From Gluconacetobacter aggeris (GTDB lineage Bacteria; Pseudomonadota; Alphaproteobacteria; Acetobacterales; Acetobacteraceae): a DNA stretch of 64,000 nucleotides. Shown one piece after another: positions 1,622 through 52,987 of the stretch. Below the pieces are notes generated by a model. That model saw only the letters and a program-made list of their open reading frames with translations. It had not been told where the DNA came from and did no database searches. How positions within the stretch are numbered: the stretch's first letter is position 1; every line of letters starts with the position of its first letter. Both the position numbers and the translations under genes were made by a program. The stretch is taken from NCBI RefSeq assembly GCF_014174395.1, contig NZ_JABEQD010000005.1, positions 124,001 to 188,000 of the forward strand, read 5' to 3'.

Positions 1622-2221
1622 ATGTTTGATTTCGCATGGTCCGAGATGGCGCTGATCGGTGTCGTCGCCCTGCTGCTGATCGGCCCCAAGGACATGCCGG
1701 TGGCGATCCGCACCATCACCGGCCTGATCAAGAAGGCCCGCAAGATGGCCTCGGAATTCCAGACCCATGTCGACGAGATGGTGCGCGAGGCGGACCTGAC
1801 CGAGGCGCGGGACGCGCTGGGTGGCATAAGGCGCTTCAATGTCCGCAACCAGATCATGCGGGCGATCGACGATGACGGCGTGCTTCAGCGCACCTTCAAC
1901 GAATCGCCGCTGGATGCGCGGCCTTCCGCGCCGCTGGTCCAGCCCCCGGCCGCGACGCCCGGTTTCGATCCGGACGGGCAGCATCGCTATGGCTACGTGC
2001 CGCCGGCGCAGCCCTATGAGGACGCCACGTTTCCGCCGGTCGCGGATGCCGGTCCGGCGCCGGCGCTGCTGCCGCCTTCCGTCGCGCGGCGGCTGGCCGC
2101 CGACCGGGCGCGGCTGCATCCGCCTGCCTTCCTGCCGCCGGTGCGGGTGATCCATGGGGCGCGACGGGTGCCCGTGGACGGGCCGGCGGTGCCGCCCGCG
2201 CCTGCGGGAGGGCCGACATAA
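1622..2221 (+). CDS. tatB: Sec-independent protein translocase TatB
   Basis: Inner-membrane subunit of the twin-arginine translocase; with TatC it forms the receptor for folded proteins carrying RR signal peptides. One N-terminal membrane helix (about residues 8-20) ends in the GPK turn at residues 21-23, followed by an amphipathic helix and a long Pro/Ala-rich cytoplasmic tail to residue 199. That long tail and the position directly before tatC favour TatB over TatA. The stop TAA shares one base with the tatC ATG. No tatA is present between scpB and this gene. Confidence 0.87.
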   Translation: MFDFAWSEMALIGVVALLLIGPKDMPVAIRTITGLIKKARKMASEFQTHVDEMVREADLTEARDALGGIRRFNVRNQIMRAIDDDGVLQRTFNESPLDARPSAPLVQPPAATPGFDPDGQHRYGYVPPAQPYEDATFPPVADAGPAPALLPPSVARRLAADRARLHPPAFLPPVRVIHGARRVPVDGPAVPPAPAGGPT

Positions 2222-3060
2222 TGGACCAAGCCAAGCCGGGAGAGACGATCCTGAACGACGATCCGGGCCATGACGATCCGATCCACGACCAGCCGATGCC
2301 GCTGCTGGAGCATCTGGTCGAACTGCGCCGCCGCCTGATCTGGTCGGCGGTGGCGTTCGGCCTGTGCTTCCTGCTGTGCTACCATTTCTCGGCGCGGATC
2401 TACCTGTTTCTCGCCCAGCCGCTGGGCGACGTGATGCGCGCGCAGGGCGAGCAGCCGCACCTGATCTATACGGCGCTGTACGAGGCATTCTTCACCTACA
2501 TCAAGGTGGCGATCTTCGGGGCGGCGTTCCTGTCTTTTCCGATGGTGGCCATGCAGGCCTGGATGTTCGTGGCGCCGGGCCTGTATCGCAGCGAGAAGCG
2601 GGCCTTCCTGCCGTTTCTGGTCGCGACCCCGATCATGTTCGTGATGGGGGCGGCGCTGGCCTATTATTTCGTCTTTCCCTTTGCCTGGAAGTTCTTCCTT
2701 TCGTTCCAGACCGCCGACGGGCAGGACGGGTTGCAGATCCAGCTCCAGGCCAAGGTGTCGGAATATCTGGCGCTGGTCATGAAGCTGATCATGGCCTTCG
2801 GCGTGGCGTTCGAGCTGCCGGTGGCGCTGACGCTGCTGGCGCGGGTGGGGATCGTGACCGCCGCCACGCTGAAGCGCTTCCGGCGCTATGCCTATGTCGG
2901 TGCCTTCGTGATCGCGGCGATCCTGACGCCGCCGGACATCATCACCCAGACCGGTCTGGCGGTGCCGCTGATCGGGTTGTACGAAATTTCCATCCTCTGC
3001 GCGCGTCTGGTCCAGCCCAAGCGCCCCGAGGAACTGGACCAGGAGAATATTCATGCATGA
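2221..3060 (+). CDS. tatC: Sec-independent protein translocase TatC
   Basis: Polytopic core of the Tat translocase that recognises the twin-arginine motif. The 279-residue protein has the family opening ([20 protein letters not shown] at about residues 26-45), then six predicted membrane segments, with the conserved LTPPDIITQ stretch before the last one. Start overlaps tatB by one base and the end overlaps serS by eight bases, so tatB, tatC and serS are probably co-transcribed. Likely clients in this window are the twin-arginine proteins at 33.2-34.5 kb, 43.2 kb and 51.8 kb. Confidence 0.95.
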
Positions 3061-4362: not shown

Positions 4363-6801
4363 TCAGGCGCGGGCAGCCGATCGGGGCCTGCGCCCATTGC
4401 CGCCTGGGCCCTTGCCCGGCTTGTAGGGGCCGGAGCGCTTGTGTGCCGGCTGTTCGGCATTGTCCGCGCGGGCGCGGCTGCTCTGCTGGCGCAGCACGTC
4501 TTCGATCCAGTCGTTCAGGCGGGCGGTGGCGTCCTCGGCGTCCTCGCTCGCGCGGTAGGCGTCGGGGAAGCGGAGGGCCAGCCAGCGCCAGGCGACCAGA
4601 CGCTTGTGGCGTTTTTCCGCGCGTTCCAGTTCGATGCGGTCGGCGCGCTCGGCAGGGGGCAGGCGGCCGGTGCCGGGGGGGATGACCGGACGGCCGGCGG
4701 CGTGGTCGGCGGCCCACTGGACCAGGCGCTGGATGCCGTTGTCGCGGTCGTCCACCGGGCACATCGCATAGACCCAGCGCTGGGCCAGCGTGAGGCCGGT
4801 GACGCCTTCCAGCGCGGTGGCGATGGCGAAGGCCTGTTCCATGTTGGCCAGGCGGTAGTTCGGGTCGTCATGGCGCAGCACGGCGCGGCGGATGCGCGAC
4901 AGCACGCCGAACAGGCTTTCCGACCCGATTTCGGCCGCCACCGCCTGGATGATGTCGGCGTCGGGCTGGACCTGCGGGCGCAGGTCGGTGGGGTCGGCGG
5001 GCGGGGCGGCCAGCATGGCGCGCACGAAGCTGACGCTGCCCGCGCCGGCCAGGACCGCCACCACGCCCTGTTCGTGCTTGCCGTAGCGGCCGGCGCGGCC
5101 GCCGATCTGCTTGACCTCCTGCGCGTTCAGGTCGCGGGTCTGGGTACCGTCGAACTTGCGTAGCGCGGTGAAGATCACGCGCCGGATCGTCAGGTTCAGG
5201 CCCATGCCGATGGCGTCGGTCGCGATCAGGATATCGGCCGCGCCGTCGTTGAAGCGCTGGGCTTCGGCGCGGCGGACTTCGGGGCTGAGGGCGCCGTAGA
5301 CCACGGCGACCTTGCGGCCGCGTGCCAGCAGCAACGCACGCAGGTCCAGCACCTCGCGCCGGGAGAAGGCGATCAAGGCGTCGTGGGGTTTCAGGTCCTT
5401 GATCTGGACGGCTTCGCTGGCGGTGACCAGCGGACCCTTGCGTTCCAGTCGTACCTCGTCCAGCGGGTCGCCGCACAGTTCGGCGATGCGGCGGACCATC
5501 GGCACGCAGTCCGGGGCGCCCAGCACATAGAGATGTCGCGCCGGGGCGCCCATGATCGCCGCCGTCCAGGCCGCGCCGCGATCGGGGTCGGACAGCATCT
5601 GGGCCTCGTCGATGATCGCGACATCGACGGGGTTGTGCAGCGGGCACATCTCGACCGTGGCGGCCAGGTGGCGGCTGCCCGGGACGTCGATCCGCTCTTC
5701 GCCCGTGGCCAGGGATGTGGGCACGCCGCGCGCCGTCAGGGCTTCGCGGAATTCGTGGGCCAGCAGGCGCAGCGGTGCCAGGGCCATGCCGCTTTCGGCG
5801 CGGGCCAGGGCTTCCAGCGCGGTGTGGGACTTGCCGCTGTTGGTGGGGCCGGTGACCAGCGTGATGCGGCGTTTCAAGGCCCGTGCGGTCTTGAAATGCG
5901 CGGCATAGCGATCAAGTGCCGCGACGCGGGCGATGACGGCGTTGCCGACCTTGCGGGTGCCGGCGTCCGGGACCAGGGCAGGGCCGGCGGGGGCGCCGCC
6001 GCGCCATTCCGGCAGGTGCTTGCGCAGGGCCACCAGTTCCCTGGGGTCGAATTCCCAGTGTTCGGTGCCATCCGGCTGCGGCACGCGGCGGGCGACGGGC
6101 AGGCGGTTCTCGGCGATCCAGCGCAGGGCTTCCTTGCCCGAGCAACGCAGCAGGCGCGGAACCTCGGAGAAGCCGACCAGGCTGGTTTCCCACTCCTGCA
6201 GCCGGCGTTCTTCCTCGGTGCGGCGGGTACGGGCGGCCTGTTCGATCGCCTCCTGTTCCTGCCGCCTGATGTCGGCGTCGCGCCGCATGCCTTCGACGAA
6301 GCCCGATCGCGGGTCCAGGGCGAAGGCTTCGGCCACCGCGCGCGACAGGGTTTCGGTCTCGGCGGGGGTCAGGACGCGGCCGGTGCCGTCGAACAGGTCG
6401 GCGCGGACGGTTTCCACCGCCGCCTCGGGCGTGGGGGCGCTGGCGCGCAGGCGCGCGCGGACGACGACGCCGAGCGCGTCGAGCAACTGGGCGTCGGTGG
6501 GTTCGGGCTCGTCGATGGTCGCGGCGGCGGCCTCGGTATCCGCACGGGTCACCCAGACCTGACCCGCGCGGCGGGTGAGGTCCATCAGGCGCGAGCCCCA
6601 TGGCTTGCGGCGGACGGTGCAGAGGGCCGCGCGGAAGGTGGCGTCGTCGACGCGGTCCTGGCCCGGGACGAGGGCGCGGGCGACCGTGCGTTCCAGCTTG
6701 GGCAGTTCGCGGGTTTCGACCGTCAGGCCGGTTTCGGCGATGGCGGCGGCGACGGCGGTGGCGGCGGGAGAGTTGGATGTCATACCCGGTTTGTGCGCCA
6801 T
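4363..6801 (-). CDS. Suv3-type ATP-dependent RNA helicase
   Basis: Superfamily 2 helicase related to mitochondrial Suv3 and the alphaproteobacterial MgpS group; probable role in RNA remodelling or turnover. Of 812 residues the first ~310 are lineage-specific, with a charged helical stretch near residues 170-205; Walker A is GPTNSGKS (about 318-325), then the DEAQ box (IIDEAQML) and motif VI QIGGRAGR in the C-terminal RecA lobe. The C-terminus is basic and Gly/Arg/Lys rich, as in nucleic-acid-binding tails. A second in-frame ATG six codons downstream (6783) is an equally good start. Transcribed alone, convergent with serS. Confidence 0.85.
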   Translation of the reverse strand: MAHKPGMTSNSPAATAVAAAIAETGLTVETRELPKLERTVARALVPGQDRVDDATFRAALCTVRRKPWGSRLMDLTRRAGQVWVTRADTEAAAATIDEPEPTDAQLLDALGVVVRARLRASAPTPEAAVETVRADLFDGTGRVLTPAETETLSRAVAEAFALDPRSGFVEGMRRDADIRRQEQEAIEQAARTRRTEEERRLQEWETSLVGFSEVPRLLRCSGKEALRWIAENRLPVARRVPQPDGTEHWEFDPRELVALRKHLPEWRGGAPAGPALVPDAGTRKVGNAVIARVAALDRYAAHFKTARALKRRITLVTGPTNSGKSHTALEALARAESGMALAPLRLLAHEFREALTARGVPTSLATGEERIDVPGSRHLAATVEMCPLHNPVDVAIIDEAQMLSDPDRGAAWTAAIMGAPARHLYVLGAPDCVPMVRRIAELCGDPLDEVRLERKGPLVTASEAVQIKDLKPHDALIAFSRREVLDLRALLLARGRKVAVVYGALSPEVRRAEAQRFNDGAADILIATDAIGMGLNLTIRRVIFTALRKFDGTQTRDLNAQEVKQIGGRAGRYGKHEQGVVAVLAGAGSVSFVRAMLAAPPADPTDLRPQVQPDADIIQAVAAEIGSESLFGVLSRIRRAVLRHDDPNYRLANMEQAFAIATALEGVTGLTLAQRWVYAMCPVDDRDNGIQRLVQWAADHAAGRPVIPPGTGRLPPAERADRIELERAEKRHKRLVAWRWLALRFPDAYRASEDAEDATARLNDWIEDVLRQQSSRARADNAEQPAHKRSGPYKPGKGPGGNGRRPRSAARA

Positions 6802-32585: not shown

Positions 32586-33131
32586 ATGGCCACCCCGTTC
32601 ACGCAGCGCTGGGGACTGTTTGTCCTGCTGGGTCTGCTGTCCATCGCGCTGGGCATCGTCGCCTGGATCGATGCGATTTCCGTCACCCTGGCCAGCACCG
32701 TCATTATCGGCATCGTGCTGGTGATCGCGGGTGGGGCGCAACTGTTCCATGCCTTCGCGGTGCGCGACTGGGGCGGCTTCATCCTGTCGCTGCTGGGCGG
32801 CGCGCTCTATGTCCTCGGCGGCTTTGCGCTGATGTACGAACCCGTCACCGGTTCGATCGTGCTGACCCTGTTCATCGCCGCCTGCCTGATCGTGTCGGGG
32901 ACGATGCGCATGCTGATCGCGGCGCGTCATCGCGAGCTGAATGGCTGGTGGATCATCCTGGGCGCCGGGCTGATCAGCCTGCTGGTCGGCGTGTGCCTGT
33001 ATCTGACGCTGCCCTGGTCTGGATTGTGGCTGATCGGCACCTTCATTGCGGTGGAGTTGATCGCCGCCGGCGTGGGCTGGATCCAGTTCGGCCTCGGGCT
33101 GCGTCAGGCGAACGCGCTGACCGGTCCCTGA
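32586..33131 (+). CDS. HdeD-like membrane protein (DUF308)
   Basis: Six-helix inner-membrane protein, 181 residues, made of three tandem two-helix DUF308 units (LGLLSIALGIVAW..., GGALYVLGGFALMY..., GAGLISLLVGVCLY...). E. coli HdeD contributes to acid resistance at high cell density; a related stress role would make sense in an acid-producing organism but is inferred. GAGGAG-type ribosome site just before the ATG. Single-gene unit ended by a strong bidirectional terminator. Confidence 0.85.
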   Translation: MATPFTQRWGLFVLLGLLSIALGIVAWIDAISVTLASTVIIGIVLVIAGGAQLFHAFAVRDWGGFILSLLGGALYVLGGFALMYEPVTGSIVLTLFIAACLIVSGTMRMLIAARHRELNGWWIILGAGLISLLVGVCLYLTLPWSGLWLIGTFIAVELIAAGVGWIQFGLGLRQANALTGP

Positions 33132-33153
33132 AAGGAACCGGTCCACAAGACGG

Positions 33154-33179
33154 AAACGGGGGGCCTGGCCCCCCGTTTT
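33154..33179. terminator. Bidirectional intrinsic terminator after the HdeD-like gene
   Basis: AAACGGGGGGCC (33154-33165) and GGCCCCCCGTTT (33167-33178) are perfect 12-base arms; TTTT follows on the plus strand and the complementary A run gives T on the minus strand. It directly abuts the stop of the convergent reductase gene. Confidence 0.85.
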
Positions 33180-33892
33180 CATGTACGGGGCAGGCCGAGG
33201 CGGGCGCGCAGTTCCGGTGCCGTCAGATCGGCCTCGAACCCTGATGAGCCGGGCTGGAACAGGCGCGCGGTGGCCAGCGGGCCGACCGCGACCGGGTCGA
33301 ACCCGGCCTCGGCGATCAGGCCGCCCACGGTGCGCATGGCAGCCGGATCGTCACCGGCATAGGGAATGGCGAGCAGCGGCGGCCTGCGATGGGCCTCGGC
33401 CTGGATGGTCGACATGTCCTCGGAATTGAAGGCGCGGACGATGTGGGCGCCGGGAAAGAGGGATTGGGTGAGGATACCCGCGCCCTGCTGCCTTGCGGTG
33501 CGGGCGATGTCGCCGTCGCGCCAGGGATAGGGGTTGCAGGCGTCGATCACGATCTTGCCCGCCAGTAATCCATGCAGGCTGGCCCCGAGACCGGGCAGGG
33601 CGCCGTAGGGGACGGCCAGCAGGACGACATCGCCGAACCGGGCGGCATCCTGCGGCGTGCCGGCCTGGGCGTTTGTGCCCAGCGCCTCGGCCGCCGAGCG
33701 GGCCGAGCCGATATCGCTGGCCGAGAGCATGACGGGGTGGCCGGCGCGCAGCCACAGGCCGGCCAGGGTGCTGCCGACATGGCCGGCGCCGATGGTGCCG
33801 ATCCGCAAGGATTGCGCCGCCACGGCAAGGCGGGCGGGGAGCAGGGCGCAGAGGCCGGCGAGGAGCGTGCGGCGGTGCATGGGGCGATTCAT
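33179..33892 (-). CDS. Exported NAD(P)-binding reductase (F420-dependent NADP reductase-like)
   Basis: 237 residues. After a signal peptide (MNRPMHRRTLLAGLCALLPARLAVAA) comes a Rossmann fold: IGTIGAGHVGSTLAGLW with GxGxxG at about residues 36-41, then VVLLAVPYGALPG and IDACNPY, all typical of the NADP oxidoreductase/F420-reductase family. The HRRTLLA stretch resembles a twin-arginine signal, as expected for a protein that binds a cofactor before export. A dinucleotide enzyme outside the cytoplasm is unusual. The start overlaps the stop of the exported cupin by four bases, so the two are translated together. Confidence 0.75.
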   Translation of the reverse strand: MNRPMHRRTLLAGLCALLPARLAVAAQSLRIGTIGAGHVGSTLAGLWLRAGHPVMLSASDIGSARSAAEALGTNAQAGTPQDAARFGDVVLLAVPYGALPGLGASLHGLLAGKIVIDACNPYPWRDGDIARTARQQGAGILTQSLFPGAHIVRAFNSEDMSTIQAEAHRRPPLLAIPYAGDDPAAMRTVGGLIAEAGFDPVAVGPLATARLFQPGSSGFEADLTAPELRARLGLPRT

Positions 33893-34485
33893 GCCTGGTG
33901 CCACAGGGCGGTCAGTGGGCCGCCGGCGCCTTTTGCCGGGTCGCTGGCGGGGAAGGGGACGTGGTTCATCCGTGCAAGCTCCTCGGCTGACAGGGCACTG
34001 CGACGCAGGTCGAAATGCTGGTCGGGCGGATAGGCGCCGACCACCAGGAAATCGTCATCCGACCCCAGGTTGCGATGGCCGGTGCCGGCCGGCAGCAGCA
34101 CGACGTCACCGGCCCGGACATCGACGACCCGGCCGCCGGGGCCGCCCAGCATCAGGCGCGCGGAGCCCGAGGCGATGCCCAGCACCTCGTGCGCCGTGGA
34201 ATGGAAATGGTGGAAATCATAGACGCCCCAGCGCCATTGGGGTGGCCAGCCATTGGCCGTGAACAGGTCCTCGAACGCCGAAGCCGGGTCGTGGGCCGGC
34301 AGTGCCAGCGCGTTGCGGTAATAGAGTACCGGCAGATGGTCGTTGTTGGGCACCCAGTCGTTGGGCTGCAGCATGAAGGACTCGACGTCATGATCTGCGG
34401 CGCCGGCGGCGCACATGTCGGTCCCGGCCAGCGACAGGCCGATTCCGGCGAGGAAGGTCTGGAAAGCGCGTCGCGAGACGGTCAT
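33889..34485 (-). CDS. Exported cupin-domain protein (YjlB-like) with twin-arginine signal
   Basis: 198 residues: signal with SRRAFQTFLAGIG (Tat consensus S-R-R-x-F) and cleavage region around CAAGAA, then a single cupin barrel with metal-binding pattern HHFHSTAHEVLGIASG (His and Glu ligands) and the second motif LPAGTGHRNLG. YjlB-type cupins often are sugar- or small-molecule-related but have no fixed reaction. Paired with the exported reductase behind it by an ATGA overlap; the two probably act together in the periplasm on an unknown substrate. Confidence 0.78.
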   Translation of the reverse strand: MTVSRRAFQTFLAGIGLSLAGTDMCAAGAADHDVESFMLQPNDWVPNNDHLPVLYYRNALALPAHDPASAFEDLFTANGWPPQWRWGVYDFHHFHSTAHEVLGIASGSARLMLGGPGGRVVDVRAGDVVLLPAGTGHRNLGSDDDFLVVGAYPPDQHFDLRRSALSAEELARMNHVPFPASDPAKGAGGPLTALWHQA

Positions 34486-34603
34486 GTCCGGTATCCTCCA
34501 GCGGCGGTTGGAGGCACCAATATGTCCCGTCCGCGAAACGGGCGAACAGTGAAAAGCAGTTTATGAACCGCTCGCGGCCGGTTTCGCCGTGTTCAGCCCG
34601 TGT

Positions 34604-35539
34604 TCAGCGCAGGGGCAGCGGGATGTGGTTGACGGTCAGGATGCCGCCCGCCCATTCGACGTCCCACGACGTATCGGCGGCATCGGCATGGTGCCCGACC
34701 AGATTGGCCATGATCAGGGCGGCGGCCGGGCGGGTCTGGCCGGCGGCGCGCAGGGTTTCGATCAGTTCGGGCAGGTTGCGCATGCTCATGTGCCCGCTGG
34801 CCGAAGCCGCGTCGGGGCTGCCGGTCAGTTCCGCCGAACCGCTGCCTTCGAGCTGCATGTCGCCACGGCGGGCGCGCAATGTCCGGATTGTGACCGGTAC
34901 CGCCACGCTGCGGGCCGGCCGGCCGGCGGTGGCGGCCAGCAGGGGACCGAGCGCCTGTGCCGGGATGGAGAAATCCGACCGTGCGTCCTGGGGCAGCAGC
35001 GATGCCAGCACGGTGTCGCCGGTCATGCCGGCGCCGCCCAGGTCCAGCGAAACCATGATGGGCTGGGCCCCGCTGCCGCCCGCCAGGTGCAGGTGCAGGA
35101 CGCCGAAGCGGATCTGTTTCGCACCGGTCTGGGCGACCGGCGACGACCAGGAAATATCGTAAGTTTGCCCGGTTTGCAGGCCCGCCAGGATCGGCTGGAG
35201 CGTTGCGAGGAAATAATCCGCCGTGCAACCGGCGCCATGGTGATTGACCAATGCGCCCAGCAGCACCACCGATGCCGCGTCGAGAATGTCGCGCATGTCG
35301 CGCGCACTGCCGCCGGCCCCGCTGACCGTGACCGATGCGGCATGCAGCGACGGGGTGCCCGCGCCGGGCGCGAAACGCAGGACATAATTGCGGGCCGTGG
35401 CCTCGGTCGGTGAGGCCGACAGGCTGCCGGCCCCGCCGACGGCACAGGCCGGCGGCAGGGGGGCGGCATGAGCGCCGGAACAGTTCATGGCCAGAACGGC
35501 GCCGAAGAGAGCCGGCAGAACGGGAATACGCATGGTCAT
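34604..35539 (-). CDS. Secreted protein of unknown function
   Basis: Not assigned to a family. 311 residues with a signal peptide (MRIPVLPALFGAVLAMNCSGAHAAP) and a beta-rich mature region containing repeated hydrophobic alternations, for example QPIMVSLDLGGAGMTGD, MQLEGSGSAELTG and ILTVNHIPLPLR at the C-terminus. The pattern recalls large periplasmic lipid- or AsmA-like beta proteins and DUF2125-type products, but the match is weak. Upstream of, and on the same strand as, the exported cupin/reductase pair (118 bases away), so it might belong with them. Confidence 0.65.
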   Translation of the reverse strand: MTMRIPVLPALFGAVLAMNCSGAHAAPLPPACAVGGAGSLSASPTEATARNYVLRFAPGAGTPSLHAASVTVSGAGGSARDMRDILDAASVVLLGALVNHHGAGCTADYFLATLQPILAGLQTGQTYDISWSSPVAQTGAKQIRFGVLHLHLAGGSGAQPIMVSLDLGGAGMTGDTVLASLLPQDARSDFSIPAQALGPLLAATAGRPARSVAVPVTIRTLRARRGDMQLEGSGSAELTGSPDAASASGHMSMRNLPELIETLRAAGQTRPAAALIMANLVGHHADAADTSWDVEWAGGILTVNHIPLPLR

Positions 35540-35682
35540 CGACTTGCCCCGGGAATTGCGATCTTATACCGCCCTTCCTTGGCACGGGATCGTGACCGAG
35601 GCGAGGCAGGCTGCGATGTTTCGGCAGACATCGCGCCGGTTCATGGTGCGCGCCAGTGCGTCTTCACTCCACCGCCAGCGGA

Positions 35683-36681
35683 ATGTTTCCGATGCTCAAG
35701 CCCGATCCGTTTCTGATCAGCCTTATCTGTACCGTCATCATCGCCACCATCCTGCCCTGTCACGGCGCCGCCGTGCCGGTCTTCCAGGATCTGGCGATCG
35801 CGGTCATTGCCGTGATGTTCTTCATGCAGGGTGCGCGCCTGTCGCGCCAGGCCGTGATGGGCGGCATCGTGAACTGGCGGCTGCACCTGGCCATCCTGCT
35901 GTGCACCTTCGCGCTGTTTCCGCTGCTGGGCCTGGGCCTGCATGCGCTGTTTCCCGGCCTGCTGCATCCGTCGGTCTGGCTGGGCATCCTGTTCCTGTGC
36001 TGCCTGCCCTCGACCGTGCAGTCCTCGATCGCCTTTACCTCGATCGCGCGCGGCAATGTGCCGGCTGCCGTCTGTGCGGCGACCACGTCCAATATCCTGG
36101 GCATCTTCATCACGCCGATCCTGACCGGGCTGGTGCTGGAGCGCCATGGCACGGCATCGGGCTCGGGCGGTGTCGTGGCCATCATGCTGCAATTGCTGCT
36201 GCCCTTCGTGCTGGGGCAGGTGCTGCAGCCATGGTTGGGCAAATGGGCGCATCGCAACAAGCGCCTGCTGTCCATGACCGACCGGGGGTCGATCCTGATC
36301 GTGGTCTATACCGCCTTCAGCGAGGCCGTGGTCCAGGGGCTGTGGCACAAGATGCCGCTATCGCAGATCGGGTTGATCCTGCTGGCGGACAGTATCCTGC
36401 TGGCCAGCGTGCTGCTGATCACCACGCTGGGCAGCCGCGTCCTGGGCTTTCCGCGGGAAGATGAGATTGCGATCGTGTTCTGCGGTTCGAAGAAGACGCT
36501 GGCCTCCGGCGTGCCGATGGCGAACGTGCTGTTTCCGCCCGCCACCGTCGGGCTGGTGGTACTGCCGCTGATGATCTTCCACCAGGTCCAGCTCTTCGTC
36601 TGCGCGGTGCTGGCCCGGCGCTATGCCGCCGCGTGGAACCGCCGGCAAGACGAGCCCGAGGCGCTGCCGAAGGCGTCCTGA
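35683..36681 (+). CDS. Bile acid:sodium symporter-family (BASS/YfeH-like) transporter
   Basis: Inner-membrane transporter of about 332 residues with 10 membrane segments. LPSTVQSSIAFTSIARGNVPAAVCAATTSN (about residues 115-144) and FCGSKKTLASGVPMANVLFP near residue 275 are the two crossing-helix signatures of the SBF-like family (DUF4137 branch). Real substrate in bacteria is unknown; pantoate or organic acids are possible. Start uncertain: GTG 35656, ATG 35683 and ATG 35692 are all in frame; 35683 has GCGGA immediately upstream. Confidence 0.85.
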   Translation: MFPMLKPDPFLISLICTVIIATILPCHGAAVPVFQDLAIAVIAVMFFMQGARLSRQAVMGGIVNWRLHLAILLCTFALFPLLGLGLHALFPGLLHPSVWLGILFLCCLPSTVQSSIAFTSIARGNVPAAVCAATTSNILGIFITPILTGLVLERHGTASGSGGVVAIMLQLLLPFVLGQVLQPWLGKWAHRNKRLLSMTDRGSILIVVYTAFSEAVVQGLWHKMPLSQIGLILLADSILLASVLLITTLGSRVLGFPREDEIAIVFCGSKKTLASGVPMANVLFPPATVGLVVLPLMIFHQVQLFVCAVLARRYAAAWNRRQDEPEALPKAS

Positions 36682-42859: not shown

Positions 42860-43201
42860 GTGAACAGCACGGAACATGCGCATGCGGCACCGCCTCTGGC
42901 CGAGGACAGGAGAGTGGGCCGGATCGGCCGGGCGCTCCGCGCGCAACTGGCTCCGAGCCTGATCGAAATCGAGGATGACAGCGGCCGTCATGCCGGGCAT
43001 GCGGGGATGCGCGGGGCCCCCGCAGGGGGCGAGACCCATTTCAATGTGCTGGTGGTCAGCGCCGCGTTCGACGGGTTGGCGCGCGTGCAGCGGTCGCGGC
43101 TGGTGCATGAGCTGCTGGCGCCGGAATTTGCCTCCGGCCTGCATGCGCTGTCGCTGACATTGCGCACGCCTGCCGAGCAGGCCCGGATCGCGGGCGCATG
43201 A
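42860..43201 (+). CDS. bolA: BolA family protein
   Basis: Small KH-like-fold protein of the BolA/IbaG family, often a partner of monothiol glutaredoxins in iron-sulfur cluster handling. 113 residues from GTG at 42860, which has AGAGGGAACGGG upstream; the core ETHFNVLVVSAAFDGLARVQRSRLVHELLAPEF is diagnostic. A Gly/Ala-rich insert before it is lineage-specific. Stop overlaps the LolA-like gene start (ATGA). Confidence 0.87.
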   Translation: MNSTEHAHAAPPLAEDRRVGRIGRALRAQLAPSLIEIEDDSGRHAGHAGMRGAPAGGETHFNVLVVSAAFDGLARVQRSRLVHELLAPEFASGLHALSLTLRTPAEQARIAGA

Positions 43202-43806
43202 GCCGTCGCGTCATCCTGTCGCGCCGGCTTTTCCTGGCCGCGCCCCTGGCCGTGGCGGCCTGCCAGGCATCGCCCGGCGCGGTGGACGTGCATGACGTCG
43301 CGCGGGTCGAACGCTACCTGAACACCACGCACGGTCTGACCGCCCAGGTTGTTCAGACCTGGCCCGATGGCGGGGTCGGAGAGGGGACGCTGTCCTACGA
43401 ACCGGGCAATCTGCGTCTGGATTACCGGACGCCGCACCCGATGCGGCTGGTGGCGGCGGGCGGGCACCTGGTGTTTCGTGACGCGCAGCGCCAGTCGGTG
43501 ACGCGGATGAACCTGTCGCACCAGCCGCTGGGGCTGTTGCTGGCCACGCCCGTGCATCTGGGGGGCGCGGTGGTCGTTACCGCGATCCGGCACGGTGCCA
43601 ATGTGCTGCAGATCTCGATGGCGCGCAGCGACAATCCGTCGCAGGGCCTGTTGACGCTGGGATTCTCCGATTTCGCCGGGCAATTGTCGCTGGTCGCGAT
43701 CGACCTGATGGATGCGCGGCGCAACAGCACGCGCCTGCATCTGACCGGTGTGCGGACCGGGACGGACTTCCCGCCCGATTTCTTTTCACTGAGCGCGCCG
43801 CTGTAA
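43198..43806 (+). CDS. LolA-like outer-membrane lipoprotein carrier family protein with Tat/lipoprotein signal
   Basis: 202 residues with LolA-fold features: GEGTLSYEPGNLRLDYRTPHPMRLVAAGGHLVFRD and LGLLLATPVHL. LolA normally is a soluble periplasmic chaperone, but this signal reads SRRLFLAAPLAVAACQ, combining a twin-arginine motif with a lipobox (VAAC, Cys at about residue 22). It may therefore be anchored as a lipoprotein and exported folded, or be a LolA relative with another job. Coupled to bolA by ATGA and followed by a strong terminator. Confidence 0.83.
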   Translation: MSRRVILSRRLFLAAPLAVAACQASPGAVDVHDVARVERYLNTTHGLTAQVVQTWPDGGVGEGTLSYEPGNLRLDYRTPHPMRLVAAGGHLVFRDAQRQSVTRMNLSHQPLGLLLATPVHLGGAVVVTAIRHGANVLQISMARSDNPSQGLLTLGFSDFAGQLSLVAIDLMDARRNSTRLHLTGVRTGTDFPPDFFSLSAPL

Positions 43807-51724: not shown

Positions 51725-51757
51725 GCCGCCTCTTTCTCAACGGAATTCGTGAGCGAC

Positions 51758-52987
51758 ATGAACCCATTCATTTCACGACGCGCCCTGCTGGCCGGGCTGG
51801 CCGCGTCGGGCATTCCCCTTGCCGCATCGTGGCCTGCCCGGGCCGCGATCCCGGCCAGGGCGCGGACATTGTGCTATATTGGCGGCTACAACAAACATGC
51901 GCCGCCCGGAGGGGCGGGGAATGGGCAGGGTATCGCGCTCTTCGAGATGAACCCGACGACCGGCGCGCTGGCGCCGGTTTCGACCTTCACGGATATTGCC
52001 AGCCCGTCCTTCATTACCCTGTCCGCCGACCATCGCTTCCTGTACGCGCTGAGCGAGATCGACGATTTCAACGGCAAGCATGACGGCAGCGTCACCGCGT
52101 TTGCGGTCGACCGGCTGTCGGGCGAGCTGACTCGGCTGAATGTCGTGTCGTCGGGCGGGGCGGTGCCGTGCCATCTCAGCGTCCATCATTCCGGGCAGTA
52201 CGTCCTGGTGGCCAATTATGTCGGTGGCAGCGTGGGCGTCCTGCCCATCCGTCCGGATGGCAGCTTGGGCGAACCGACGGACATCGTACGGAATTCCGGC
52301 CCGCGCATGCCGGAACGGGCACAGGACAATCCACCGGGTAATTTCGCGGTCAGCGACCATTCCGGGCCGCATGTGCATATGGTGGCCAGTGACCAGTCGG
52401 GGAATTTCGTCCTGGCCTGCGACGCCGGGCTGGACCGGGTCTATGTCTGGACGCTGGATCTGGCGACGGGCAAGCTCAAACCCGCCGCGAAGCCCTTCCT
52501 CTCGCTGATGCCCGGATCGGCCCCGCGCCATTTCTCCTTCAGCCACGATGGGCGGACGCTGTACATCCTGTGCGAACAGGATTCCAAGATTGTCGTCGCC
52601 GCGTTCGATCCCGCGACCGGCACGATCACCCCGCAGCAGCGGGTCAGCACCGTCACCTCCTATTTCCAGGGCAGCACGCTGGCGGCGGGAATCCTGCTGT
52701 CACCCAACGGCCGGTATATCTATGCATCGAACAGGCTGGGGGATTCCCTGGCCGTCTTCCGTGCCGGCCCCGATGGATTGCTGACCCTGGTCGACGAAGT
52801 CTGGATGCATGCCGATTACGGGCGGGCCATGATGTTCGACCCGTCCGGCACGTTTCTGTTCTGCGCCAACCAGCGCAGCGATTCCGTCACGTCGTTCCGT
52901 GTCGACCCCGAAACCGGCGCGCTGGATTTCACCTGGCACTTCACCGCCGTCGGCAGCCCCACCACCTTCGCGTTCTTCCAGCTTTAA
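51758..52987 (+). CDS. Exported lactonase-family beta-propeller protein (6-phosphogluconolactonase-like)
   Basis: 409 residues, seven-bladed beta-propeller of the YbhE/Pgl lactonase family: CYIGGYNKH at the first blade, ALSEIDDFNGKHDGSV, GAVPCHLSVHHSGQYVLVANYVGGSVGVLP, SDHSGPHVHMVASDQSG and ILLSPNGRYIYASNRLGDSLAVF. It carries a twin-arginine signal (SRRALLAGLAASG), so it works outside the cytoplasm. Acetic acid bacteria oxidise sugars to lactones in the periplasm, and hydrolysis of such lactones is a plausible job; 6-phosphogluconolactone is unlikely there. ATG 51749 is a second possible start. Confidence 0.83.
   Translation: MNPFISRRALLAGLAASGIPLAASWPARAAIPARARTLCYIGGYNKHAPPGGAGNGQGIALFEMNPTTGALAPVSTFTDIASPSFITLSADHRFLYALSEIDDFNGKHDGSVTAFAVDRLSGELTRLNVVSSGGAVPCHLSVHHSGQYVLVANYVGGSVGVLPIRPDGSLGEPTDIVRNSGPRMPERAQDNPPGNFAVSDHSGPHVHMVASDQSGNFVLACDAGLDRVYVWTLDLATGKLKPAAKPFLSLMPGSAPRHFSFSHDGRTLYILCEQDSKIVVAAFDPATGTITPQQRVSTVTSYFQGSTLAAGILLSPNGRYIYASNRLGDSLAVFRAGPDGLLTLVDEVWMHADYGRAMMFDPSGTFLFCANQRSDSVTSFRVDPETGALDFTWHFTAVGSPTTFAFFQL

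Follow-up and report, generated by a model that had tools for sequence, protein, structure and literature searches.

A conserved gene pair for a Rossmann-fold reductase and a cupin, both probably exported, in acetic acid bacteria and its possible relation to periplasmic pyridine-nucleotide chemistry

Introduction

In textbooks, NAD(P)(H) is a cytoplasmic currency, and redox chemistry in the periplasm proceeds via quinones, haems, PQQ or cofactors bound beforehand. The bound cofactor of glucose-fructose oxidoreductase (GFOR) is NADP. According to one article, Zymomonas GFOR and the aldose-aldose oxidoreductase (AAOR) of Caulobacter have Tat signals, and GFOR with its signal sequence still attached is a folded, active enzyme (PMC4628093). 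The reductase described here resembles these Gfo/Idh/MocA proteins as a Rossmann-type oxidoreductase with a Tat signal, but it differs in its family (PF03807), its length of 237 amino acids, its cupin partner and the lack of the arginine typical of NADP enzymes. By sequence and structure, it shares its Rossmann fold and family with F420H2:NADP oxidoreductase (FNO) and the N-domain of STEAP metalloreductases, from which it is set apart by its export signal and by a score of 29 bits against npdG (TIGR01915, NADPH-dependent F420 reductase), under the equivalog cut-off of 149.8. FNO and the STEAP N-domain are cytoplasmic or cytosol-facing.

Among cupins, the manganese protein MncA (Sll1358) of Synechocystis is a Tat substrate that is exported folded, and its structure entry (2vqa) is entitled 'Protein-folding location can regulate Mn versus Cu- or Zn-binding'. 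We know of no reductase partner of MncA. The cupin described here has a His/Glu metal motif in common with MncA and a weak sequence match to it (E 0.0064); MncA has a longer chain (361 residues) and belongs to a different family.

Nucleotide carriers of the NTT type enter the comparison through relatives of the reductase. NTT proteins carry ATP/ADP. According to PMC5381601, characterised NTTs come from parasites, endosymbionts or plastids, there is a wide, uncharacterised occurrence in free-living bacteria, NTT4 of Protochlamydia transports NAD, and NAD transport is suggested for NTT4-like proteins. A search of the open-access literature, with partly narrow queries, gave no title or abstract on an exported F420_oxidored protein, on this cupin or on an NTT-like carrier by exported reductases. 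An Asaia secretome study includes a cupin and several NAD(P)-binding proteins, none of which we could match to the pair (PMC12502724).

Here we analyse two overlapping genes in a stretch of 64,000 nucleotides of Gluconacetobacter aggeris (contig NZ_JABEQD010000005.1, positions 124,001 to 188,000; hereafter the window). The initial annotation read them as a reductase and a cupin with RR signal peptides that possibly form a two-protein periplasmic redox or sugar-modifying system.

Results

On the minus strand, the cupin gene is placed 5' and the reductase gene 3' (Table 1), and the four-base overlap described in the initial annotation is present as an ATGA common to the cupin stop and the reductase start. 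The N terminus of the cupin reads MTVSRRAFQTFLAGIGLSLAGTDMCAAGA and that of the reductase MNRPMHRRTLLAGLCALLPARLAVA. Both have the sequence features of a Tat substrate, an RR motif, a hydrophobic stretch and an A-x-A-like site, in agreement with the RR signal peptides that had been proposed. A possible alternative start of the reductase, GTG at 33904, lies further upstream, and the RR signal is retained from there too.

Signals were called by a crude, home-made rule (RR, hydrophobic stretch and A-x-A) supplemented by N termini read by eye. The rule was positive in 4 of the 56 ORFs called in the window at a length of at least 120 aa, and two of these four are the cupin and the reductase, which is beyond a chance occurrence. 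The other two lie at 43198-43806 (+), which is lipoprotein-like, and at 51749-52987 (+). All 24 aligned sequences share both arginines of the cupin signal. A TatB-like gene and a TatC gene, assigned from position and profile match respectively, lie in the same window and would represent the export machinery that the pair would need.

Table 1. Features of the gene pair and of the Tat genes, in window coordinates
Feature	Position	Strand	Remarks
TatB-like gene	1622..2221	+	TatB named from position only
TatC gene	2221..3060	+	PF00902, 241 bits at window 2308-2967 (contig 126308-126967)
Rossmann reductase gene	33179..33892	-	237 aa, ATG start, Tat-type signal peptide; ORF call
Ser59 of reductase	33716..33718	-	aligns with Arg of the 'SR' loop of FNO (5n2i) and STEAP3 (pairwise alignments)
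Dinucleotide-binding motif G35-AGHV-G40	33773..33790	-	GxGxxG
Reductase signal peptide, residues 1-25 (HRRTLL ... AVA)	33818..33892	-	cleavage site inferred
ATGA overlap, cupin stop TGA / reductase start ATG	33889..33892	-	4 bases
Cupin gene	33889..34485	-	198 aa, ATG start, Tat-type signal peptide; ORF call
Cupin motif 2 residue H137	34075..34077	-	invariant in 18/18 and 24/24 (two alignments)
Cupin motif 1 residues H93, H95, E100	34186..34209	-	invariant in 18/18 and 24/24 (two alignments)
Cupin signal peptide, residues 1-29 (SRRAFQ + hydrophobic stretch + AxA)	34399..34485	-	Tat rule; cleavage site approximate

Compared with five relatives within the genus, the mature parts of both genes have dN/dS values of 0.05-0.28, and cupin and reductase are under purifying selection within the genus as judged from these alignments. 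The closest named relatives, among the best 80 of 407 reductase-profile relatives, are those of G. tumulicola (reductase 95%), G. asukensis and G. takamatsuzukensis. A sigma-70-like promoter scan of 32900-35700 returned 0 sites and is uninformative as to promoters. A third operon member in acetic acid bacteria was considered among the genes next door (a secreted ORF at 34604-35539, an SBF transporter and a hydrolase) and was rejected; these are mere neighbours because they are present in 5 of 80 loci, all from Gluconacetobacter. The product of 34604-35539 (-) looks secreted, is without a Pfam match and adjoins the pair in the five Gluconacetobacter loci only.

The distribution of the pair was examined in two samples. 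In a family draw of 150 genomes, a reductase (E <= 1e-25) was found in 23, comprising 22 exported-group members, among them G093, whose N terminus is masked, and one cytoplasmic form (G143). A relative of the cupin was found in 51 of the 150; with all N termini read, 15 of the 51 have an exported-type cupin and 36 have one that starts directly before the domain, without an RR-type N terminus. Both exported proteins occur in 13 genomes of the draw and are adjacent in 10 (Fisher 2.5e-11, descent ignored), and two genomes (G071, G011) have an exported-type cupin without the reductase. The second sample, of named genomes, consists of the best 80 of 407 reductase-profile relatives and contains 46 loci of acetic acid bacteria and 34 others. 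Here a cupin lies upstream of the reductase on the same strand in 35 of the 80 loci, namely 29 of the 46 acetic and 6 of the 34 other ones. The six non-acetic pairs belong to Paraburkholderia, Azomonas, Rouxiella, Serratia sp. and two Tatumella, and pair loci span alpha-, beta- and gammaproteobacteria. Spacing between the two genes in relatives is about -16 to +97 bases, as measured from script-chosen starts (the start in L061 was not usable); in Paraburkholderia it is 445, and a small cytochrome-like ORF lies between cupin and reductase.

Among the 46 acetic loci, a cupin beside the reductase is absent from 13 Komagataeibacter and 2 Novacetimonas-type loci. Both Novacetimonas-type genomes (L089, L132; G073, G142) have a cupin elsewhere in the genome, and two family-draw genomes that are Komagataeibacter-like by their reductase (G060, G135) gave no cupin match anywhere. 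The cupin is therefore dispensable, given the 13 Komagataeibacter loci without an adjacent cupin and these two genomes without any match. In Ameyamaea chiangmaiensis (L110, about 5414-5813), the cupin beside the reductase is apparently broken into two frames, and one acetic locus (L102) is truncated. Outside acetic acid bacteria, the cupin is absent from beside the reductase in 28 of the 34 loci among the best 80 of 407. Since the surroundings differ between genera, the conserved thing is the pair and not its neighbourhood. We conclude from these comparisons that the pair is real and conserved, and that its products are probably exported.

N termini of the reductase were readable in 79 of the 80 named loci (best 80 of 407), and they divide into 74 of RR type and 5 RR-less ones of Sec type. 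Three (L061, L115, L125) were read by eye, the script having picked a far-upstream start, and that of L100 is ambiguous between Tat and Sec. All 45 readable signals of acetic acid bacteria in this set are of RR type. The five Sec-type reductases are those of Yersinia frederiksenii (L103), Rouxiella (L106), two Tatumella (L108, L109) and Serratia sp. (L121), and two more were met beyond the 80, on a Pantoea plasmid (L146) and in genome G515 (L138). With seven RR-less signals among relatives, the initial annotation's premise that the cofactor must be carried across by Tat does not hold generally. In Rouxiella, Serratia and Tatumella, where the reductases are of Sec type, the partner cupin retains RR. 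RR occurs in the 35 cupins that pair with a reductase, 33 of them scored by script and two (L068, L109) by eye. Cytoplasmic homologues of the reductase start straight at the domain (L002, L024, L142, L144, L145, L149); L002 is the host's own cytoplasmic paralogue, 31% identical to the reductase.

The reductase matches PF03807 (F420_oxidored) with 66 bits, above the cut-off of 21.6, and a GFO_IDH_MocA domain is absent from its Pfam and NCBIfam matches. Several plasmid relatives carry the annotation 'NADPH-dependent F420 reductase' and others 'NAD(P)-binding'. An AlphaFold-type model has a pLDDT of 92.9, with 96-98 in the core and residues 1-20 as the low-confidence part, and in a structure search its nearest folds were 4huj, STEAP2/3 and FNO 5n2i with NADP. 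The designation as an NAD(P)-binding Rossmann protein stands with respect to the dinucleotide fold and the GxGxxG motif, in which G35 and G37 do not vary across the 50 aligned rows and G40 hardly does. NADP use is uncertain because Ser59 aligns with the 'SR'-loop arginine; the window reductase lacks the arginine after the second strand that marks the binding loop of NADP-type FNO/STEAP proteins. In FNO and STEAP, this arginine has a role toward the 2'-phosphate, and other Rossmann proteins bind NAD without it. The ligand of the window reductase may be NAD, something else or no nucleotide. Of 34 non-acetic reductases 33 have the arginine, against 22 of 45 acetic ones (Fisher 1.4e-6, descent ignored); in the remaining 23 acetic reductases, the position is occupied by S, N, G, I, L, V, W or K. 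Within Gluconacetobacter, some species have the arginine, and the group of the window has Ser, Asn or Gly.

A tree of the reductases was computed in quick mode with five cytoplasmic rows named as outgroup and with L143 and L144 dropped; several long branches were flagged. In this tree, 88 exported rows cluster (support 93), apart from the cytoplasmic homologues, and the acetic rows form one clade of 46 that includes the window (support 97). Seven beta- and gammaproteobacterial rows join the acetic clade at a node with support 80 in this quick tree with flagged long branches; in six of them a cupin adjoins the reductase, and in one it lies elsewhere on the plasmid. L137, a homologue without a signal, has a very long branch and falls immediately outside these 88 exported rows, apart from the five outgroup rows.

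The cupin misses the Pfam cut-offs of Cupin_2 (26.4 vs 27.2 bits), Cupin_1 (20.1 vs 22) and Cupin_6 (19.5 vs 26.7). The cupin superfamily is defined by the motifs G(X)5HXH(X)3-4E(X)6G and G(X)5PXG(X)2H, and H93, H95, E100, G107, G126, P132, G134 and H137 of the window cupin are invariant at the corresponding positions. H93, H95, E100 and H137 are presumably the metal ligands by their role in the family, and their invariance agrees with the metal-binding cupin of the initial annotation. The AlphaFold model of the cupin has a pLDDT of 87.2. A function was sought from structure and rejected: Foldseek matches were weak (best E 1.7e-4), and the best VIA-align match reached a Z of 9.2 over 122 residues within a mix of sugar ketoisomerases, acireductone dioxygenases and epimerases. 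We assign no function to the cupin, nor a sugar-modifying role to the pair, because its best matches, sugar 3,4-ketoisomerases and acireductone dioxygenases, have a Z of only 8-9, which is too low. In the cupin tree, exported and cytoplasmic forms are intermixed near the base (4 changes), and one origin of the exported cupin is therefore not supported; L040, labelled cytoplasmic in this tree, has an RR-type N terminus when read by eye.

Outside acetic acid bacteria, an MFS-type transporter usually adjoins the reductase. It is reminiscent of Chlamydia Npt1 and Protochlamydia NTT4, as a profile of 9 sequences matches 9j3n (ADP,ATP carrier protein 1) with E 1e-15 and two of five transporters tested pass the PF03219 (TLC) cut-off of 21, but unlike characterised NTTs it adjoins exported reductases in free-living bacteria. 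The TIGR00769 (NTP/NDP exchange) cut-off of 387.2 bits was reached by none of six; four gave matches of 18-42 bits (max 41.6) and two gave none. At scores so far below the curated NTT cut-off, nucleotides are only a candidate substrate of the transporter.

Among the best 80 of 407, 28 of the 34 non-acetic loci contain the transporter, the genomes of the remaining 6 have it at another place, and none of the 46 acetic loci has it. It was found in none of 25 distinct whole acetic genomes reached through the loci (7 + 18, the latter searched with two positive controls, both detected) and in none of the 15 family-draw genomes of acetic type, the window's own included, a set that overlaps the 25 by species. 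By comparison, 7 of 7 non-acetic-type reductase genomes of the family draw have it (Fisher 2.4e-9 vs 0 of 15). In the class draw, it is present in G288, which has an exported reductase, and absent from G296, which has a signal-less homologue; in the phylum draw, 4 of 4 genomes with an exported reductase have it. All seven RR-less reductase signals (L103, L106, L108, L109, L121, L138, L146) come from transporter-bearing genomes or records. As the transporter is absent from the window's own lineage, it bears on the window pair by descent only. The proposed two-protein system holds insofar as the pair is kept over long distances, but not strictly: the reductase is without an adjacent cupin in Komagataeibacter and in 28 non-acetic loci, and in the latter it is accompanied by the NTT-related transporter, frequently together with further exported oxidoreductases.

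These other neighbours with export signals are aldo-keto reductases (AKRs) and short-chain dehydrogenases (SDRs). Both kinds adjoin the transporter in Pseudomonas gingeri (L100) and Yersinia frederiksenii (L103), and further proteins with export signals beside it are a flavodoxin (L103) and an NmrA-like protein (L217). Frames of AKRs and SDRs are of Tat type in 41 of 49 cases within 1.5 kb of a transporter vs 0 of 11 farther off or in transporter-less loci (Fisher 2e-7), a count whose rows are related and in several cases chosen through the reductase, and from which L136-L208 were excluded as duplicates or short flanks. By script, 60 of 69 transporter genes have an exported oxidoreductase at a distance of at most 1.5 kb, and reading by eye added L153, L154 and L220; this table is biased because its rows were partly selected through the reductase. 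None was seen by the transporter, by script and eye, in L219, L228, L232, L233, L236 and L237, of which L232 and L237 have a signal-less aldo-keto reductase there. In genomes chosen by the transporter alone, an exported oxidoreductase adjoins it in 11 of 11 of the family draw and in 7 of 7 of the class draw (G156, G227 and G331 being signal-like but RR-less). The phylum draw by transporter comprises 36 genomes: 13 with long flanks, 17 with short flanks and 6 without a locus. An exported oxidoreductase was found in 11 of the 13 with long flanks (one RR-less; not in G526 and G467), and none was flagged in the 17 viewed with 1.5-kb flanks, which mostly hold distant transporter relatives.

Discussion

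We favour, at about even chances, the reading that cupin and reductase are one exported unit derived from a periplasmic pyridine-nucleotide redox system, now without a carrier, and that Tat exports the two proteins pre-loaded. Both products would be exported folded and would then act in the periplasm, the cupin metal and the reductase nucleotide having been loaded in the cytoplasm. The ancestor of the reductase group would have been part of a periplasmic pyridine-nucleotide system in which aldo-keto or short-chain reductases, likewise exported, were accompanied by an NTT-related membrane transporter. Where the transporter is present, exported reductases keep the NADP-type loop; some may be Sec substrates, and these would have to be loaded beyond the cytoplasm. 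In acetic acid bacteria, which are without the transporter, the reductase would therefore exit the cytoplasm with its nucleotide already bound, as GFOR does, and it would perform redox-neutral work or seldom exchange the bound cofactor. The single-domain cupin might be a metal-dependent isomerase or oxygenase that acts on the same small carbonyl or sugar compound as the reductase. Loss of the arginine in about half of the acetic reductases fits a relaxed dependence on free NADP.

A wider proposal is tentative, and we would sooner doubt than accept it. In many free-living proteobacteria, an NTT-related MFS carrier may pass NAD(P)(H) to exported enzymes (an FNO-like reductase, an aldo-keto reductase, an SDR, a flavodoxin in a single instance and the cupin in certain bacteria) that are sent by Tat or, unfolded and loaded in the periplasm, by Sec; acetic acid bacteria would have kept the reductase-cupin arm, lost the carrier and become Tat-only with drifting NADP specificity.

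That the two proteins are instead ordinary Tat-exported holoenzymes with a tightly bound cofactor or metal, and that the relatives' transporter serves a substrate rather than nucleotides, we consider unlikely. There is precedent in the Tat signals of Zymomonas GFOR and Caulobacter AAOR, as described in PMC4628093, and the scores of the transporter are far under the NTT cut-off (18-42 bits in four of six and none in two, vs 387). However, this leaves unexplained the Sec-type signals on relatives, as well as an NTT relation of the transporter that lies beside several unrelated exported NAD(P)-enzyme families. The replaced arginine in 23 of 45 acetic reductases and the absence of the transporter from the acetic genomes searched could also mean that the acetic reductase no longer uses a pyridine nucleotide and partners the cupin as a cofactor-free or otherwise-liganded periplasmic binding protein. 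We regard this as quite improbable, given that all 50 aligned rows have G35 and G37, that the model core has a pLDDT of 96-98, that 22 of the 45 retain the arginine and that NAD binding without it occurs in other Rossmann proteins.

The export of the pair itself could be questioned, since the crude Tat rule also matches two other ORFs of the window; the RR stretches would then be non-functional as signals and both proteins cytoplasmic. This is very improbable in our view, as the RR extension is kept in 74 of 79 reductases and in 35 paired cupins but is absent from cytoplasmic homologues of both families, and in the other five readable reductases it is not lost but substituted by a Sec-type signal.

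Our favoured reading of an exported, carrier-less unit would make the reductases a conserved class of exported dinucleotide-fold enzymes, the plasmid members of which are annotated merely as 'NAD(P)-binding' or 'NADPH-dependent F420 reductase', and their relatives predict a nucleotide carrier that feeds exported dehydrogenases. The pair could be a variant of Tat-exported dinucleotide enzymes and a pointer to transporter-fed periplasmic NAD(P) chemistry. If true, this would be a new place to look for NADPH-dependent reactions in Gram-negative bacteria and would allow whole-cell biocatalysis without inner-membrane crossing. A periplasmic reductase-cupin pair is of practical note because acetic acid bacteria are used industrially for periplasmic oxidations.

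The transporter together with Tat-signal aldo-keto reductases or SDRs is a candidate periplasmic NAD(P) system of its own, as far as gene neighbourhoods can indicate. Such arrangements were seen in L100, L103, L111, L115, L209-L214, L221, L223, L229, L230, L234, L235 and others, and also in genomes without a window-type reductase. Distant relatives of the transporter (E about 1e-50) occur in many species of genus g337, family f164, of the phylum draw (L196-L203, L205-L208 and others), with no exported reductase flagged within 1.5 kb. Azomonas macrocytogenes has three copies of the transporter (L229-L231), which adjoin two aldo-keto reductases of Tat type and an SDR whose N terminus is signal-like. 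On the Azotobacter chroococcum plasmid pAcX50f (L148, 264861-281565), several SDRs in a row lie together with an alpha/beta hydrolase and a reductase, both of Tat type, as well as an SMP-30 lactonase, an MBL hydrolase and the transporter; this assembly is possibly a pathway cluster.
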